DNA from: Paenarthrobacter sp. PH39-S1
GTDB taxonomy: Bacteria > Actinomycetota > Actinomycetes > Actinomycetales > Micrococcaceae
DNA length: 64,000 bases
Reading direction: 5' to 3'
Assembly: GCF_030063245.1 (NCBI RefSeq)
Contig: NZ_JASISR010000011.1
Coordinates: 39,886-103,885, forward strand
This document shows positions 17,872 to 26,277 of the stretch, piece by piece. Within the stretch, counting starts at the first letter, position 1. Every line of letters begins with the position of its first letter. Position numbers and translations under genes: made by a program. The notes beneath the pieces were generated by a model. The model was not told the DNA's origin and made no database searches. It worked only from the letters and a program-made list of their open reading frames with translations.

Positions 17872-18837
17872 CTAAAGGTCCAAAACGAGCCGTTTACCCT
17901 TGCAGCGCGAGACGCAGATCATCATGGTATCCCCGGCCAGTCGCTCGTCCTCCGAAAGCAGGCTGTCCCGGTGATCGATCTCGCCGCTGACCACCGCTGT
18001 CTCGCAGGTACCGCAAATGCCCTCTTGGCAGGAGCTGAGCACCGGCAGGCCGGCGCCTTCCAGTGCCTTCAGGACGGTGGTTCCGGCCGGCACTTCGACT
18101 TCGGAGCCATCGGACAGCTCCACGGTGAAATCGTGGTCTCCGTCCACCACCGCCGCAGCAGCACCGGCGTCCGCCGGGTCCGGGACAAACCGCTCAAAGT
18201 GAAACCGGGAGGCGTCCGCCCAGGCCCCGGTCATGGACTGGATGATCTTAAGCAGCGGCCCCGGTCCACAGGTGTAGAGATGGAATCCGGCGCCGGGCTG
18301 GTGAAGCAGCTCCGCCAGCGGGAAAAGCCCGCTTTCATCGTCGGCATGGATGTGGACGCTGCCGCCGTAGGCCTCCAGCTCGTTAAGGAATGCCATGCTG
18401 TTCCGGCTGCGGCCCAGATACACCAGGCGCCAGGGCACACCGGTCTCCGCGGCCCTGCGGATCATCGGCAGGATCGGGGTGATGCCGATGCCGCCGGCGA
18501 TGAACAGGTATTCGGGGGCCGGCACCAGCGCGAAGTTGTTCCGCGGTGGACGGACTTGGACCTTGGTGCCGGGCCGCAGCTCATCATGGACAAAGGCAGA
18601 GCCACCGCGTCCGGCCGGTTCGCGCAGCACGGCGACACGCCAGTCCGCCTGGCCGGTTTCCGAACACAGGGAGTACTGGCGCATCACCCCGTTGGGCAGC
18701 ATTAGATCCACGTGCGCCCCGGGCTCCCACTGCGGCAGCTCCCCGCCTAAGGGGCACTGGAGCGTCAAGGAGACCACGCAGTCCGACTCCCGGCTGATGC
18801 TGCTGACGTTAACGTCGAAGAACTCTGCTGTTTTCAT
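17872..18837 (-). CDS. PDR-type ferredoxin reductase (VanB-like oxygenase reductase)
   Basis: This 321-residue electron-transfer protein is ordered like phthalate dioxygenase reductase: a flavin domain (MRQYSLCSE for FMN or FAD), an NAD domain (LFIAGGIGITPILPMIRRA; YTCGPGPLL) and a C-terminal plant-type [2Fe-2S] ferredoxin with Cys near 270, 275, 278 and 308 (CQEGICGTCE). It passes electrons from NADH to a terminal oxygenase. The obvious partner is the Rieske oxygenase at 22137-23198, at the other end of the same minus-strand gene series, separated from it by transporter genes. That arrangement strongly suggests one catabolic operon. Confidence 0.92.
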   Translation of the reverse strand: MKTAEFFDVNVSSISRESDCVVSLTLQCPLGGELPQWEPGAHVDLMLPNGVMRQYSLCSETGQADWRVAVLREPAGRGGSAFVHDELRPGTKVQVRPPRNNFALVPAPEYLFIAGGIGITPILPMIRRAAETGVPWRLVYLGRSRNSMAFLNELEAYGGSVHIHADDESGLFPLAELLHQPGAGFHLYTCGPGPLLKIIQSMTGAWADASRFHFERFVPDPADAGAAAAVVDGDHDFTVELSDGSEVEVPAGTTVLKALEGAGLPVLSSCQEGICGTCETAVVSGEIDHRDSLLSEDERLAGDTMMICVSRCKGKRLVLDL

Positions 18838-18881: not shown

Positions 18882-19667
18882 CTACTCGGAGAGCACTGAT
18901 GCCAAGAAAGACTTGGTGCGCTCATTATGGGGATTGGTGATGACGTCGCGGGCCGGTCCCTCTTCAACTACGTGTCCGCCGTCCATGAAGATCACCCGGT
19001 CCGCCACATCCCGGGCGAAATTCATCTCGTGGGTGACGACGACCATGGTCATGCCGGACTGTGCGAGGTCCTTCATCACCTTGAGCACCTCGCCCACCAG
19101 CTCAGGGTCCAAGGCGGAGGTCGGCTCGTCGAAAAGCATGAGCTTAGGCTCCATGCACAATGCCCGGGCGATGGCCACGCGCTGTTGCTGACCACCGGAG
19201 AGCTGCCGCGGGTAGGCGCCGGCTTTGTCGCCCAGCCCCACTTTTTCCAGCAGCCGCAATGCGCGTTCGGCCGCCACCGACTTCTTTTCCTTGCGCACCA
19301 ACCGTGGAGCCTCGATCAGATTTTCCACGACGGTCATATGCGGGAACAGGTTGAACTGTTGGAAGACCATGCCGATGTCGGTGCGTTGGCGGCAGATGTC
19401 CTTGTGGCTCTGTTCGTGGAGCTTCGTGCCTTTGAGGTCATAGCCGACGATCCTGCCGTCGACCCACATCCGCCCGCCGTCGACTGTTTCCAAGTGGTTG
19501 ATGCAGCGCAGGAAAGTACTCTTCCCGGAACCGGAGGGACCAATCAGGCAGATCACTTCACCGGAGGCCACCTGCAGGTCGATTCCTTTGAGGACCTCGA
19601 GGGACCCGTAGCTTTTGCAGATCGCATCCGCCTTGATCATCGGCTCCAGTGTTGTTTGTGCCGTCAT
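18882..19667 (-). CDS. Polar amino acid ABC transporter, ATP-binding protein
   Basis: The 261-residue GlnQ/HisP-type ATPase starts at MTAQTTLEP (ATG at 19667), which overlaps the permease stop by ATGA. It contains Walker [10 protein letters not shown], the Q-loop region [13 protein letters not shown], the signature [15 protein letters not shown], Walker [15 protein letters not shown], and the H-loop VVVTHEM. It energises import through the permease at 19664 with the lipoprotein at 20618. A longer open frame upstream lies within the permease gene and is not coding. Confidence 0.95.
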
Positions 19668-20614
19668 GGCCGTCCGCCTTTCAGGGAGAGCGCATCGTGG
19701 GTGCGGAAGAACTTCTTTAGCTGCTGCAGGGGTGTGGGCGGCAGGGCCCGCTGGTTGCCGCGGGCGTAACGGCGTTCCAGGTAGTACTGGCCGACGGTCA
19801 ATACGGACGTAATGAGCAGGTACCACAGGCTGGCAACTATCAGCATGGGTATCGTTTCGAAGGTACGCGCGTAGATGACCTGGGCCGAGTACAGCAGCTC
19901 GGGCACCGAGATGACGCTGACCAATGAGGTGGCTTTGAGCATCCCGATGGTTTCATTGCCGGTGGGCGGGATGATGACGCGCATGGCCTGCGGCAGCACT
20001 ATCCGGCGCATGGTCTGCATCCGGGTAATCCCGAGTGCCTCGGCCGCCTCGATCTGCCCGTTGTCCACGGATAGAATGCCGGCGCGGACAATCTCGGACA
20101 TATACGCGCCCTGATTCAGGCCCAGTCCCAGAATGGCCGCGGTCATTGGTGTGATCAGTTGATTGGCGTCCAGATGGATGCCGGGGATGCCCAGGGTGAT
20201 GACCGGGTATAGCGCCGCCAGGTTGAACCAGAACAGCAGCTGCACCAGGACCGGTGTGCCCCGGAAAAAGTTCACGTAGCCAAATGCCGCCGTGCGCACC
20301 ACCGGGTTGGTTGACAGCCGCATCACGGCGAAGATGACGCCGAGCACGGTGCCGATCACCATGCTGATGGCCGTCAGTTCAAGCGTAATTAGGATCCCCC
20401 TGCCGATGGACACCTCGCTGAGGTAGAGCACGACGACGTCCCAGCCGAAGTGGGGATTCGTCAGGACAGAGCGCAGGAACAGTCCCGCCACGGCCAGGAT
20501 GACGACGGCGGACACCCAGCGGCCGGGATGCCGGGCCTTGACGACGGTGTAGGCGTCGCCTGACGGCTCCGCCGTTGCCGCCGGAGCCGTCAGGGTCGCT
20601 GAATCTTCCTTCAT
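19664..20614 (-). CDS. Polar amino acid ABC transporter, permease
   Basis: This 316-residue inner-membrane protein is of the HisMQ type. After a cytoplasmic head of 30 residues it has about five hydrophobic helices. The amino acid permease motif is [19 protein letters not shown], and the EAA loop for ATPase contact is [22 protein letters not shown] single permease probably works as a homodimer. It starts 3 bases after the binding-protein stop and overlaps the ATPase gene, so the three are translationally linked. The substrate class is an amino acid or an amino-acid-like compound. Confidence 0.94.
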
Positions 20615-20617
20615 CGC

Positions 20618-21550
20618 TTACTTCTTATCCAGTACGTCGGAGGTCACCAGAACGCTGTCCGGAAGGCCCCATTTGCTGCTGATGCCGCGGTAGAAGGTGC
20701 TGTCGAGGACATCCCGGGTGGCTTCCGTGACGGCGTCCTTCAGCCCGGAATCCTTGGCCAGCGCCAGCCCCACGGGGGCCGGGTCGTAGTCCTTGCCCTT
20801 GGCCAACTCGAACTTATTGCCGGCCAGTTTGCTCTGGTAGGCCAATGAGGTGCTGTCCGCCACCACTCCATCGACGCGCCCGGACGTCAGGGCGAGATTG
20901 GCCTCGGTTTGCGCGGGGAAGTTCTGCACCTCGATAGCCGCCTTTCCGCTTGCGGTGCATTCCTTGGAGAAGGACGGAATCAGTTCCATGGACTGGATGG
21001 ACCCCTTCTGCCCGGCAATCTTCTTGCCGCACATCGACGTCGGATCCATCGTGATGTTCTGTGGGTTTCCGGCCATGACGGCAACACCGGAACCACCGTT
21101 GATGTACTGGACAAAGTCAACAATTTTCTCGCGCTCGGGCGTGATCGAGTAGGCCGAAAGGGCCATGTCGTATTTGCCCGATGCCAGTCCGGGCAGGATG
21201 GTGTCGAAGGTTCCGGCCACATGTTCCGCCTTCAGCCCCAGAGCTGCGGCGACGGCGTCGGAAAAGTCGACATCCCAGCCGATGATGGTCTTATTGTCCG
21301 TATCGAAGTACTCAAACGGGGCGTAGGTGGGGTCGGACGCGACTCGCAGGACCCCGGCCGAACGGATGCTCTCGGGCAGCAGATCCCGGGCCTTCTGATT
21401 GACTTTGATCTCGGTGATGGACGGCGCTGCGGCCGATGTGTCCACTCCGGAGTTCTTCGGTGCGGCCTCCGAAACGGTGGTACAGGCGCTCATGGACAGC
21501 GCCAGGAGGAGGCAACCGGTCACGAGGATGGATTTGCGGGAAGGATGCAT
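20618..21550 (-). CDS. Polar amino acid ABC transporter, substrate-binding lipoprotein
   Basis: 310 residues from MHPSRKSILV. A lipoprotein signal (LLLALSMSAC, acylated at the Cys near residue 22) is followed by the family 3 solute-binding fold: GVLRVASDPTYAPFEYFDTD, IIGWDVDFSDAVAAALG, VAGTFDTILPGLASGKYDM and ALSAYSITPEREKIVDFVQY. This is the amino acid/opine class. The C-terminal half has a normal hinge and second lobe. An alternative start (MTKGIQ) lies 6 codons upstream. Since it stands between oxygenase and ATPase genes, its ligand is probably the substrate of the Rieske oxygenase or a conjugate of it. Confidence 0.93.
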   Translation of the reverse strand: MHPSRKSILVTGCLLLALSMSACTTVSEAAPKNSGVDTSAAAPSITEIKVNQKARDLLPESIRSAGVLRVASDPTYAPFEYFDTDNKTIIGWDVDFSDAVAAALGLKAEHVAGTFDTILPGLASGKYDMALSAYSITPEREKIVDFVQYINGGSGVAVMAGNPQNITMDPTSMCGKKIAGQKGSIQSMELIPSFSKECTASGKAAIEVQNFPAQTEANLALTSGRVDGVVADSTSLAYQSKLAGNKFELAKGKDYDPAPVGLALAKDSGLKDAVTEATRDVLDSTFYRGISSKWGLPDSVLVTSDVLDKK

Positions 21551-21628
21551 TTGGATACCTTTTGTCATGGGCCGACCTGAATGGTCCGGCAACAGTGTCT
21601 CTGGACGTAATCGACGAAATTTAGTGCA

Positions 21629-21679: not shown

Positions 21680-22129
21680 TCAGGGTACCCACCGGAGTAC
21701 CTTGGCCTTCGTTGGTGCGAGCGTAATGACCTGCACAGCGGAATCTCCGACGGGCAGCGACAGCCGGAGGGTCTCCGGATCTTCGCCTTCGACGATGAAG
21801 ACATCACCGCGGCGCAGCCACCGTTCCCACGGCCCGTTCTCCGCGGCCACGAGTGCTTCGCCCGTCAATGCCGCCACGATGAGCTGCTCCCCGGCACCGC
21901 GCTGAAATAGGCCGGTGTACCCGCCCTCGTAGCGTGCACTGACCGCGGCAATGTGGCTTTCATCCGCCTCCAGCCTCACAGCCGGTTCCACCGCCGACTC
22001 GTTCAGCTCTATCGTCCAGCGCCACGGGTCGCCACGTTCGGCCGAGTCAGGACAGGCCGCAAGGATCCTCGCACCCGACTCGGCGGAGGTTTCCGCGCCC
22101 AGGGCGTTGGCCCTGATCAGCATCCACAT
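21680..22129 (-). CDS. Conserved hypothetical protein in the Rieske oxygenase operon
   Basis: 149 residues from MWMLIRANALGAETS. I do not recognise a family with confidence. The sequence is acidic and beta-rich, with a pattern near the end (ERWLRRGDVFIVEGEDPE) that resembles the last strands of a single cupin barrel, as in HutD-like proteins, but the typical HutD start is missing. It begins 7 bases after the stop of the Rieske gene, so it is co-translated. It may be an accessory protein for a substrate with limited stability, or a small enzyme acting after the oxygenase. Confidence 0.65.
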   Translation of the reverse strand: MWMLIRANALGAETSAESGARILAACPDSAERGDPWRWTIELNESAVEPAVRLEADESHIAAVSARYEGGYTGLFQRGAGEQLIVAALTGEALVAAENGPWERWLRRGDVFIVEGEDPETLRLSLPVGDSAVQVITLAPTKAKVLRWVP

Positions 22130-22136
22130 ACCGGAC

Positions 22137-23198
22137 CTACCCGTTCCTGGCGGCAGCAGGCTCCAGTCGTGCCGCCTCCTGGACCTGTGGCCGGGCCTGA
22201 TGCTCTTTCTTGAGAAGAGCATTGAAGATGCGCCGGGCCTTGGCCACGCCGCCGTCCTGGGCGATGAGGACGTCATGTTCGCCGTCGGGGCGCGTCTGCA
22301 TACCGATCTCCTGCGCCTCAAGCGCCTCGGCATCTTCGTCCAATACCGTGCCCAGCCCGACGCGCAGTTCCTCGGTGGCCTGTTCATTGTCTACGGCGAA
22401 GTTGCGGCTGAATGCGTAGTAGTACCAGGCATTGTGTTCGTCAATGGGGGTTATACCGTTGAGTACCTTGATCAGGTACCCCTCGTCGCGCGGGCGGCCC
22501 ACACCGGTGATACCGGAGTGCAGTACATGCATATTGGGCACGAAGAACTCGGTGCAGTGGAAGCGGTCGAACAGCCCCCGGGCGTCCATCGTCTCGGCGT
22601 ACAGCGGCGGCGCAGCGACGGACGGCATCAGCCGGTCCACACTGACCACGTTGCCTTCCACCTCAACCGTTATGCCGTGCTCGTAAATGTAGTCATCGCC
22701 CACAGTTGTTTTGTGCAGGAAGGATTCGTGGGTCAGATCCAGCAGGTTATCGTGGATCAGGGAGGCACGGCACTTGAAATGGTAGGAGTGCGTGACGGTA
22801 GCCCACTCGGGGTCGACCATCCAATGCGTGTCCGGCACATCGGCCGGATCGGCCAATTCCGCGTCTCCCGTCCAGACCCAGATCCACCCGTCTTTTTCAA
22901 CGACGGGGTATTTCCGCACTCGTGCACGCTCCGGAACCGTGGTCTGTCCCGGCACCTTGGTGCACACTCCGTCGGCACCGTAGGTGAAACCGTGGTATCC
23001 GCACTCCACCGAATCTCCGATGGTTCGCCCGGCCGAGAGCGGGAACGCCCGGTGGGCACAGCGGTCGGCCAACGCGACTGCTGCATTGTCCTGCGTGCGG
23101 AAGAGCACGATCGGCTGCTCGCAAATGACGCGACGTACCGGTTTGCGGGTCACTTCGTTGGACCACGCAGCCACGTACCAAGTATTTAATACATACAT
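22137..23198 (-). CDS. Rieske non-haem iron oxygenase (VanA/phthalate oxygenase group)
   Basis: 353 residues from MYVLNTWYVAAWSNEV. The Rieske [2Fe-2S] ligands are Cys47-x-His49 and Cys66-x2-His69 (RCAHRAF and ECGYHGF). The catalytic iron site lies in HDNLLDLTHESFLH (His156, His161, with the usual Asp/Asn before it), and the order is that of vanillate O-demethylase-like oxygenases, which demethylate or hydroxylate aromatic acids. It heads the minus-strand operon that ends with the PDR-type reductase. The substrate is unknown; an amino-acid-type ABC transporter between the two suggests an amino-acid-linked or N-containing compound (inference). Confidence 0.92.
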   Translation of the reverse strand: MYVLNTWYVAAWSNEVTRKPVRRVICEQPIVLFRTQDNAAVALADRCAHRAFPLSAGRTIGDSVECGYHGFTYGADGVCTKVPGQTTVPERARVRKYPVVEKDGWIWVWTGDAELADPADVPDTHWMVDPEWATVTHSYHFKCRASLIHDNLLDLTHESFLHKTTVGDDYIYEHGITVEVEGNVVSVDRLMPSVAAPPLYAETMDARGLFDRFHCTEFFVPNMHVLHSGITGVGRPRDEGYLIKVLNGITPIDEHNAWYYYAFSRNFAVDNEQATEELRVGLGTVLDEDAEALEAQEIGMQTRPDGEHDVLIAQDGGVAKARRIFNALLKKEHQARPQVQEAARLEPAAARNG

Positions 23199-23220: not shown

Positions 23221-23235
23221 GTATACAATGTATTC
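23221..23235. promoter_or_regulatory. Putative GntR operator before the Rieske operon
   Basis: GTATAC-AAT-GTATTC. On the other strand it reads GAATAC-ATT-GTATAC, the same half-site and spacing as the perfect palindrome before the M20 gene (24235). It lies 22 bases upstream of the Rieske start, on the side facing the GntR gene. Confidence 0.6.
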
Positions 23236-23387
23236 GAAGTCACAGTCGGGGGTCAAGGGTTTTTTGTTACGCTTACCTTAATTCGTCGCTCCGAGGCGAT
23301 GGGGAGAGTTATCCAGGTCGGTGGCGAAGAAAACCTGAAGCCACGCCAAGATGCCAGAGTTGAACGAACAGAAAGCGGAGGAAGGCC

Positions 23388-24092
23388 TTGGCCGCGCAAC
23401 CTAGAGACGTAAGACCCTTGGCGGTGCGGGTCTACGAACACATCAGCGGCGACATCGTAAGTGGGGTGCTCCCCGCCGGCACGGCCCTGATCCAGGAACA
23501 GGTCGCGGCCCAGTACAGCGTCTCCCGCACTCCTGTCCGGGACGCATTGACACAGCTAACGTTGGAAAACCTGACCACCCTGGTGCCGGGCAGAGGGTAC
23601 ATTGTCAATCAGCTCGACGACCGTGAGATCGCCAATGTCTTCGAAGTCCGCTATGCCCTCGAAACGCTGGCCGTCCGGCGCACCTGCGGTGTCTACACCC
23701 CGCAGCAACTGATCCGCATGAACAGCCTCGTTGAGGAAACCGCGATCATTGATCCGGCGGACAGCCTGGAAATCTTCCGCCTCGGCCGGGCCTTCCATAT
23801 AGCCCTGATGGAGCCCTCCGGCAATGATTTCCTAGTCAATGTGCTCACCTCCATTTGGAACCACCCCGTCCAAAAACGGATCACCCTCACCTACCGCCAG
23901 GGCGCAACCTATCTAGCAAAAGTCGTGCATGACCACCGCGGCATACTGCAGGCGCTAAGGGACAATGATGCGGTGGCCGCCGTCGAGGTGCTGAGCCGGT
24001 GCCATGATGTCAGCGACCCTAACCGGGCGGAATCGCAGTCACAGCCGCAGGAAGCACAGAAGACCTTCGAGCCCGAGGCTGGCGGAAGCTAG
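23388..24092 (+). CDS. GntR family regulator, FCD (FadR) subgroup
   Basis: 234 residues from TTG 23388, with GCGGAGGAAGG as ribosome-binding site. The N-terminal winged helix includes PAGTALIQEQVAAQYSVSRT and PVRDALTQLTLENLTTLVPG. The C-terminal FCD helical domain (residues 85-210) carries the usual Asp/His metal-site pattern (FEVRYALETLAVRR, AFHIALMEPSGND, VVHDHRGILQAL). It lies between the divergent Rieske operon and the M20 amidohydrolase gene, both of which have a GAATAC-type palindrome, and is the obvious regulator of both. The tail after residue 205 is Ser/Gln/Glu-rich. Confidence 0.92.
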   Translation: MAAQPRDVRPLAVRVYEHISGDIVSGVLPAGTALIQEQVAAQYSVSRTPVRDALTQLTLENLTTLVPGRGYIVNQLDDREIANVFEVRYALETLAVRRTCGVYTPQQLIRMNSLVEETAIIDPADSLEIFRLGRAFHIALMEPSGNDFLVNVLTSIWNHPVQKRITLTYRQGATYLAKVVHDHRGILQALRDNDAVAAVEVLSRCHDVSDPNRAESQSQPQEAQKTFEPEAGGS

Positions 24093-24214
24093 ACCCGGCT
24101 CATCCGGCTCGTCCGGCCGCCGTTCCTGACGGGCTTCTTTGCCGCAACCGAGTAGGACCACCGAGCCAGCGCCGCCAAGTCCCGGGCCGGTAGAATTCCT
24201 CATCGTATAATTTG

Positions 24215-24249
24215 TTGATTTGAGGGCAGACACCGAATACTGTGTATTC
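24215..24249 (+). promoter_or_regulatory. Promoter and GntR operator of the M20 amidohydrolase gene
   Basis: TTGATT (24215-24220), 17 bases, TACTGT (24238-24243). The perfect palindrome GAATAC-TGT-GTATTC (24235-24249) covers the -10 box, so bound repressor would prevent transcription. Confidence 0.65.
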
Positions 24250-24277: not shown

Positions 24278-25504
24278 ATGGTCACAGTGCCTTCACTTCA
24301 GCATGACGCGGACGCCATCCGAGATGAGATCATCGATTTCCGCCGGGCCCTGCACCGCATCCCGGAAATTGGCCTCGACCTGCCGCTGACACAGCGGCTG
24401 CTGCTTGACCGGCTGGAGGACCTTGACGGCTTGGAGATTACCCTGGGCCACCGGCAAAGTGCCGTCACTGCCGTGCTGCGCGGCGGGCGGCTCAGGGAAG
24501 ACGGCACCGCCGGCCCAGTGGTTTTACTGCGGGGGGACATGGACGCGCTTCCGGTCAGCGAGGAGACCGGCCTGGATTTCAGCTCCGAAATTCCCGGATC
24601 CATGCACGCCTGCGGGCACGATATGCATGTGGCCGCCCTCTACGGCGCCGTCCGTGTGCTGCACCAGCGACGGGAGGATCTCTGCGGCGACGTGGTTTTC
24701 ATGTTCCAGCCGGGTGAAGAAGATTACAACGGCGCACGCTTCATGGTTGAAGACGGCGTCCTGGACGCAGCGGGCCGGCGGGTCGAGGCCGCGTTCGGGC
24801 TCCATGTCTTTTCCGGCAAGTTCGACAATGGAGTTTTCTACTCCCGTCCGGGCACGCTCATGGCTGGCTGTGAAGAATTTTATGTCACCGTCAGAGGCGA
24901 GGGCGGACACGGGTCGCAGCCACATCTGGCCAAGGATCCGGTGCCCGTAGCCTGCGAAATGGTGCTCGCCATGCAGACCCTGGTGACGCGCGGTTTCGAC
25001 GTATTCGACCCGGTGGTGGCCACCGTCGGGCGGATCGCGGCAGGTACTCTGGGGAATATCATTCCCGACACGGCAAGTTTTGATCTGACGCTGCGGGTCT
25101 TCTCGTCGGAGAACCGGGACAAGATCGTCGCCGGTGTCCAGCGCCTGTGCCGCGGCATTGCGGATGCCCACGGCATGACGGTGGAGCTCGTGCAGACACC
25201 GGACTACCCCGTCACCGTCAACGCGCCGCAGGAACACCAATACCTGACGGACATCATCACCAAAACCTTCGGAACCGGCAGCTTCCGCGAATTGGATGTG
25301 CCGATGACGGGTTCGGAGGATTTCTCCCACGTACTGCACGAAGTTCCCGGCGCCTATGTGCTGCTCGGCGCAACTCTCGAGGAGGAACCCCTGAAGGCAG
25401 CTATGAACCATTCTCCCCGCGCTGCCTTCGATGACTCTCTCTTGCCGAAAGCCGCGGCTGTCCTAGCCGAGCTGGCCTTCCAGCGGGCGGACTATTCTGC
25501 CTGA
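24278..25504 (+). CDS. M20D-type amidohydrolase (hippurate / N-acyl amino acid hydrolase-like)
   Basis: This 408-residue metal-dependent amidase belongs to the IAA-amino acid/hippurate hydrolase group. It contains RALHRIPEIGLDL, LLRGDMDALPV, the metal-binding HACGHDMHVA (Cys112, His114), FQPGEEDYNGA (Glu147-Glu148), HVFSGK, the dimer-domain entry GGHGSQPH, and GSEDFSHVL near the end. Such enzymes release an amino acid from N-acyl or N-aroyl conjugates. It is not the allantoate amidohydrolase type (M20 AllC lacks this CGHD form). Control by the neighbouring GntR, together with the Rieske and amino acid transport genes, suggests cleavage of an imported aromatic-amino acid conjugate (inference). 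Confidence 0.9.
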   Translation: MVTVPSLQHDADAIRDEIIDFRRALHRIPEIGLDLPLTQRLLLDRLEDLDGLEITLGHRQSAVTAVLRGGRLREDGTAGPVVLLRGDMDALPVSEETGLDFSSEIPGSMHACGHDMHVAALYGAVRVLHQRREDLCGDVVFMFQPGEEDYNGARFMVEDGVLDAAGRRVEAAFGLHVFSGKFDNGVFYSRPGTLMAGCEEFYVTVRGEGGHGSQPHLAKDPVPVACEMVLAMQTLVTRGFDVFDPVVATVGRIAAGTLGNIIPDTASFDLTLRVFSSENRDKIVAGVQRLCRGIADAHGMTVELVQTPDYPVTVNAPQEHQYLTDIITKTFGTGSFRELDVPMTGSEDFSHVLHEVPGAYVLLGATLEEEPLKAAMNHSPRAAFDDSLLPKAAAVLAELAFQRADYSA

Positions 25505-25530: not shown

Positions 25531-26277
25531 ATGGCATGGGCGGGGACAGCGGACTCCGGAACAGCGCAAGCTTCAGATGCGCAGGTCAGCAGGGACATGA
25601 CCGGGACGACGACGGCGGTCCTGCTGGCCGCGGGTGCCGGCCGCCGGTTGGGCCGGGGCCCGAAGGCCCTCCTTGCGTTCCGGGGAACAACGCTGGTTGA
25701 GCATCTGGCCGGCGTGCTCCGCGCGGGCGGCTGCCGGGACGTCGTCGTCGTACTGGGCGCGGATGCTCAGCTGGTCCGGTCCCGCACCGATCTGCGGTCC
25801 TACCGGATCCTCGAGAACCCGCGCTGGGCGGAGGGCATGAGCACCTCGTTCCGGCTGGGCATCGGCGCTGCCCATCCCGGGAACCACGTGCTGGTGGCGC
25901 TCGTGGATCAGCCCGCACTCACCGCTGCGACGGTGACCCGACTGCTGGAGGCGCACCGGGGCGGAAGGGTGACCGCCGCCGGGTACATCCCCTCCCCCGA
26001 AAGCGCGCCCGCCAACAGTGCTTCCAGCGACAGCCCGTCCTCTCACGGCGCATCCCCGGACAGTGCGTCCTCCTGCAGCGCAGCGGTCCTGCAGCGCGGG
26101 CATCCGGTCCTTTTCGATTCATCTCTGGCCCGGCAGGCGGCTGCTGTAGCGTCCGGAGACTCTGGCGCCCGTACTTTCCTGCGGACCAACCCAGGGCTAG
26201 TGGATCTGATCGACTGCTCGGACCAGTCCGACGGTGCCGACGTTGACACCGTCGCGGGCCTGCATCTGCTGGGCTGA
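25531..26277 (+). CDS. Molybdenum cofactor cytidylyl/guanylyltransferase-like protein (MocA type)
   Basis: 248 residues. The nucleotidyltransferase motif is AVLLAAGAGRRLGRGPKALL (residues 29-48), followed by VVVLGADAQ, NPRWAEGMSTSFRLG and VALVDQPAL. MocA-type enzymes add CMP to the molybdopterin cofactor used by xanthine dehydrogenase, which fits the convergent xanthine dehydrogenase genes. An in-frame start at 25597 (MTGTTTAV) is equally possible and better matches the family. Residues about 154-184 are a Ser/Ala/Pro-rich insert absent from typical members. The last 81 bases overlap, antisense, the 3' end of the xanthine dehydrogenase gene. Confidence 0.85.
   Translation: MAWAGTADSGTAQASDAQVSRDMTGTTTAVLLAAGAGRRLGRGPKALLAFRGTTLVEHLAGVLRAGGCRDVVVVLGADAQLVRSRTDLRSYRILENPRWAEGMSTSFRLGIGAAHPGNHVLVALVDQPALTAATVTRLLEAHRGGRVTAAGYIPSPESAPANSASSDSPSSHGASPDSASSCSAAVLQRGHPVLFDSSLARQAAAVASGDSGARTFLRTNPGLVDLIDCSDQSDGADVDTVAGLHLLG

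Follow-up and report, generated by a model that had tools for sequence, protein, structure and literature searches.

Are the two transcription units on either side of a GntR-type regulator gene governed by that regulator? The 64,000-nucleotide stretch of DNA analyzed here (the window) carries a Rieske oxygenase operon on the minus strand and an M20 amidohydrolase gene on the plus strand, and the original prediction held that the two share an operator, GAATAC-N3-GTATNC, and are functionally coupled. The regulator gene (23388 to 24092, plus strand, TTG start) does lie between the two sites. Its product scored 54.0 bits against the Pfam GntR profile (cut-off 27) and 79.7 bits against FCD (cut-off 24.3), which places it in the FadR subfamily; we propose that it is a repressor.

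The Rieske operon comprises, in order, genes for the Rieske oxygenase (22137 to 23198), a conserved 150-residue protein that we call X150 (21680 to 22132), a family 3 ABC transporter solute-binding protein (20618 to 21592), a permease (19664 to 20614) and an ATPase (18885 to 19664), both of the polar amino acid type, and, as its last gene, an oxygenase reductase with FNR-like and 2Fe-2S ferredoxin domains (17872 to 18837). The three transporter proteins were assigned by domain profiles. The oxygenase carries Rieske and VanA_C domains above cut-off (Pfam PF00355 and PF19112), making it a member of the VanA type, and its nearest solved structure is the dicamba O-demethylase DdmC. The genome (G000) encodes another Rieske protein of the VanA type (C63:18716-19711; L153, L160; 54%), which has an amino acid ABC transporter encoded in its vicinity and lacks this operator. 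X150 is conserved among GntR-linked Rieske clusters. It had no Pfam or NCBIfam match, including to HutD/Ves-type profiles, and none in Pfam even at an E value of 5. Its structural model (pLDDT 88.7) was closest to HutD structures (Z 12.2-12.8, rmsd 2.6-3.0 over 123-131 residues), with pirin as the next family (Z 11.0). We conclude that X150 is predicted to adopt a HutD-like cupin fold. The M20 gene (24278 to 25504, plus strand) encodes an amidohydrolase of the N-acyl-amino acid hydrolase type, nearest among solved structures to ILL2 and YxeP. Beyond it, at 25531 to 26277 on the same strand, is a gene for a MobA-like protein that matches the NCBIfam nicotine blue oxidoreductase (274 bits, cut-off 260) and adjoins xanthine-dehydrogenase-type genes.

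Both sites were present at the positions given in the original prediction. Operator 1, GTATACAATGTATTC (23221 to 23235), reads GAATAC-ATT-GTATAC on the minus strand, contains TGTATACA and stands, as predicted, 22 bases ahead of the Rieske ATG. Operator 2, GAATACTGTGTATTC (24235 to 24249, plus strand), reads GAATAC-TGT-GTATTC and lies 28 bases ahead of the M20 ATG at 24278. The description as a perfect palindrome held for operator 2, whereas operator 1 is imperfect (GAATAC/GTATAC). The shared motif is rare: GNATACNNNGTATNC occurred exactly twice in the window, against 0.01 expected from shuffled sequence, and three times in the 4.65-Mb genome, the third copy (GCATACCTGGTATGC) lying within a coding sequence. 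Hence, operators 1 and 2 were the only noncoding matches found in the genome. A search for further regulon members, which had been suggested as a check, gave eight more matches when one mismatch was allowed, against four for a reversed control, and revealed no further promoter-type site in the genome, as all eight lay within predicted open reading frames. The opposite box order, GTATWC-N3-GWATAC, yielded nothing promoter linked beyond operator 1, with L178 and L179 left unplaced. The GntR regulon in this genome thus appears to be confined to this locus. The strict pattern GWATACNNNGTATWC was present in 51 of 395 genomes from the family, and outside this cluster it occurred about 0.1 times per genome. 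Separately, GAATACACTGTATTC occurred once each in G015, G044 and G089 (genus g12), where it is possibly the operator of a different regulon.

Where do the sites lie relative to the promoters? A candidate sigma-70 promoter for the Rieske operon, TTGACC-18-TACATT (23227 to 23256, minus strand), has as its -10 element TAC-ATT, the junction inside GAATAC-ATT-GTATAC, so that operator 1 covers the -10. TTGAC is found at a spacing of 17 to 18 bp in nearly all orthologous Rieske promoters. A candidate M20 promoter, read by eye, is TTGATT-17-TACTGT (-35 at 24215 to 24220, -10 at 24238 to 24243); operator 2 would cover its -10 in the same register as the site in the Rieske promoter. A better -10, a perfect TATAAT (24206 to 24211) that precedes operator 2 by 23 bases, is accompanied by no good -35. 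Because it is an alternative -10, the transcription start of the M20 gene is uncertain. With these candidate promoters, the operators cover the -10 and start region in both cases, which is the usual position for a repressor.

Comparison of orthologs refined the operator. In 15 of 15 strict-pattern Rieske promoters, the right-hand box was preceded by T and followed by A, two positions that had been left free in the search pattern, giving TGTATACA. This sequence fits the FadR-subfamily form NyGT-Nx-ACNy (GT-AC spacing of 2 or 3) with a gap of 2 bases (GT-2-AC), and GntR regulons are known to include weaker half-sites at a distance of 7 to 12 nt (PMC4494728). Given the invariant flanks and the fit to the consensus, we favor reading the operator as a FadR-subfamily palindrome, TGTATACA, accompanied at 9 bp by a second box, over reading it as a GAATAC-N3-GTATTC inverted repeat. 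The M20 site has TGTATTCA with GAATAC, that is, one mismatch and no intact TGTATACA, and we predict that it is the weaker, more degenerate operator despite its perfect symmetry. ATACNNNGTAT alone was dropped as the motif: ten promoters, mainly of genus g23, lack it yet have GTATAC with neighbors at 9 bp. A seeming additional site 47 to 48 bp into the Rieske coding start (L062, L072 and L073) was set aside as coding constraint, reflecting N-T-W-Y-V at the Rieske N terminus.

Absence of the sites from orthologous regions would have spoken against a shared operator. GntR relatives were found in 31 of the 395 family genomes, and surrounding regions of up to 20 kb were compared; boxes were present in every GntR-linked Rieske promoter found. 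The strict site was present in the Rieske promoter of 14 of 24 same-family clusters with an adjoining GntR, the window included. The remaining 10, mainly from genus g23, have 9-bp-phased variants of the GTATCC/GTATAC/GAATAC type, such as GTATCC-ACT-GTATAC-GGT-GAATAC, at the equivalent position behind TTGAC. We defined a phased pair as boxes with at most one mismatch from GTATAC at a 9-bp step. By this measure, phased boxes occur in every one of the 25 GntR-linked Rieske promoters (G615 included), against 0.006 or less per locus after shuffling. The pairs are also concentrated in position: of the 41 present across 30 related regions (569 kb), 40 fall no more than 260 bp ahead of a Rieske, gntR or M20 gene, and those in the window are exactly operators 1 and 2.

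The site follows the regulator. In G615, which belongs to another family, a distant GntR (41%) is encoded at the far end of the operon, and the Rieske promoter keeps GAATACACTGTATAC. Two loci with the GntR and transporter genes and no Rieske gene (L079 and L080) have TGTATACA upstream of gntR. The strict site was not found upstream of six Rieske loci that lack this GntR (L154, L155 and L157-L160), nor in G041 (L068), where the GntR is kept and the Rieske cluster is missing. The recognition motif of the helix-turn-helix (HTH), SRTPVRDAL, is kept in nearly all close GntR orthologs. The window GntR shares 74% identity with its counterpart in G376, from another genus, versus 57% with those of genus mates, and its grouping with the G376 and G384 proteins has full support. 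Because of this, the cluster was probably acquired or else represents a paralog lost elsewhere. A plasmid search returned only generically named Rieske homologs of less than 60% identity, and a related-locus search of genome contigs returned a single distant match.

Does the M20 gene belong to the same pathway? In 20 of the 25 clusters (L063-L066, L070-L078 and L085-L091), a gene with the AstE/AspA fold, gene Y, lies inside the Rieske operon, about -2.6 to -1.5 kb from the Rieske start. Its product is nearest to the deacetylase DoeB, below the cut-off (242 versus 402.7). Gene Y is missing from the clusters of the window, G376, G384, G011 and G615, and M20-linked clusters are without it. The window M20 has a partial likeness to DoeB2, its NCBIfam NF038260 score of 265.9 bits falling short of the cut-off for membership (550). 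In G376 (L062), a truncated and frameshifted M20 relic lies about 0.7 to 1.3 kb after the gntR start on the gntR strand, in the same GntR-M20 order as in the window and directly behind an intact-looking operator, GAATACTGCGTATAC, at the matching place relative to gntR. G376 is the only other genome in which an M20-side site was seen. In a second G209 cluster, an M20 gene (64%) comes immediately after gntR, and the site lies between gntR and a solute-binding protein gene. Genus mates G002 and G004 carry M20 genes 73 to 74% identical elsewhere with no site, so M20 is not obligately in the regulon. G384, G011 and G615 have the Rieske cluster and neither gene Y nor M20 nearby, which speaks against a strict coupling of that cluster to the deacylation step. 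We conclude that M20 has probably replaced a DoeB/AspA-type deacylation step, under the shared operator.

Site rarity, conservation and linkage to this GntR support the functional coupling of the Rieske and M20 units. Very probably, a local GntR repressor acting on GTATNC boxes controls the Rieske operon and M20 jointly and is released by a ligand, with M20 supplying deacylation. The GntR would bind the boxes (core TGTATACA, 9-bp repeat) over the -10 and start of both promoters, that of the divergent Rieske-X150-ABC-reductase operon and that of M20, which lies downstream of gntR. A pathway substrate or intermediate would bind the FCD domain and release the repressor from the two promoters, so that uptake, oxygenation and amide hydrolysis would be induced together. 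The window M20 would supply the deacylation that most relatives encode within the Rieske operon as a DoeB/AspA-type gene. From what was observed, namely, the positions, rarity and conservation of the sites, their linkage to this GntR and the gene content, we infer that the GntR binds the sites, that it represses and does not activate, that a pathway compound is the inducer and that M20 acts in the pathway.

Perhaps only the Rieske-side site is real, the M20-side match being chance or a relic and M20 being expressed independently from TATAAT? The lack of an intact TGTATACA at the M20 site, its only other occurrence ahead of a decayed gene and the site-free M20 genes of genus mates are what such a reading would lead one to expect. 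However, phased pairs outside these promoters occur about once per 569 kb, so that the odds of a chance match in the roughly 100 bp ahead of M20 are of the order of one in several thousand. The site moreover sits on the candidate -10 in a Rieske-like register, and G376 has GAATACTGCGTATAC at the equivalent place. We therefore consider an unregulated M20 unlikely. Activation or dual regulation by GntR at both sites is compatible with the sequence and is somewhat harder still to credit: the site overlaps the -10 in both promoters, where a bound protein would usually block RNA polymerase, and catabolic regulators of the FadR subfamily are mostly repressors.

The boxes could also owe their conservation to a function as promoter elements (-10 and start region) and not as a GntR operator, given that the left box (TAC-A-N-T) forms the -10 with TTGAC 17 to 18 bp upstream. 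We think this very improbable. The invariant TGTATACA (15 of 15) extends past the -10, Rieske loci without the GntR have no strict site, and the Rieske-less loci L079 and L080 keep TGTATACA upstream of gntR. About a dozen other FCD-type GntR proteins are encoded in the genome, any of which might be the main binder in place of the product of the gene between the sites; yet the site follows this GntR lineage, including the position in G615, and is missing where the GntR is missing, which leaves a paralog hardly credible. The proposed regulatory logic, a local FadR-subfamily regulator, is ordinary and well supported by the sequence comparisons.

What compound does the pathway consume? Judging from the gene content, it would resemble an amino acid and carry an amide to be cut as well as a group for the Rieske enzyme; the tie-in of M20 narrows the substrate to one carrying both an amide and an oxidizable group. 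That it is a histidine derivative is a guess. The hints are the HutD-like fold of X150, hut genes beside one cluster (G011) and an aminotransferase gene beside five. The hut genes, encoding HutI, a HutF-like protein and HutU, lie directly downstream of gntR in G011 only (L069:10315-16018), and the class III aminotransferase gene is beside the clusters L071, L073, L076, L077 and L091, in three genera. The aminotransferase loci of genus g23 also have an MMSDH-like dehydrogenase and a PucR regulator. A gene for a ThDP-dependent enzyme lies by gntR, about 0.9 to 2.5 kb after its start, in four g8 genomes (L063-L066), and L156 has a different ThDP enzyme divergent to the Rieske operon. A literature search for links between Rieske enzymes and methylhistidine, or between Rieske enzymes and GntR in Arthrobacter, found nothing relevant. 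A more specific proposal, which we hold to be doubtful, is an undescribed pathway, all under one GntR, whose substrate would be a histidine derivative, for example, an N-acyl or beta-alanyl N-methylhistidine. The polar amino acid ABC transporter would take up the compound, M20 or the DoeB/AspA-type enzyme would cut the amide and the VanA-type Rieske enzyme would demethylate the ring, assisted by the HutD-like protein. If true, the same regulator would have recruited two unrelated hydrolases as interchangeable modules.

The analysis adds an exact regulon, a refined operator and an apparent hydrolase exchange. The regulon is small, serves an uncharacterized Rieske oxygenase cluster and appears to tie in a separately transcribed amidohydrolase. 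The exchange is a case of a DoeB/AspA-like enzyme apparently replaced by an unrelated M20 with its own operator copy.

How does this system compare with known ones? It shares with the FadR-subfamily GT-2-AC regulons (the HypR, PrpR, UxuR, MdcY and GntR groups) an FCD regulator, a palindromic TGTATACA core, an extra half-site 7 to 12 nt away and a divergent promoter beside the regulator gene (PMC4494728). It differs from them in ligand and targets, in a second box placed exactly 9 bp away and conserved nearly to the level of the core, and in that its operator is predicted from sequence. NanR of Escherichia coli, with its (GGTATA)3 operator, is likewise an FCD-type repressor that recognizes short tandem GTAT-containing boxes, and its 32-residue N-terminal extension is required for cooperative binding of three dimers (PMC8012715). 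In contrast, the window sites have two boxes and the HTH of this GntR begins at about residue 10 to 12, leaving no extension of about 32 residues; a NanR-type multidimer repressor was hence rejected. The closest parallel to the hydrolase exchange is the ectoine pathway, whose N-acetyl-diaminobutanoate deacetylases DoeB and DoeB2 likewise represent two unrelated folds, AstE/AspA and M20, for one type of deacylation. Unlike DoeB and DoeB2, the window M20 and its relatives' gene Y score far below the cut-offs of those families.
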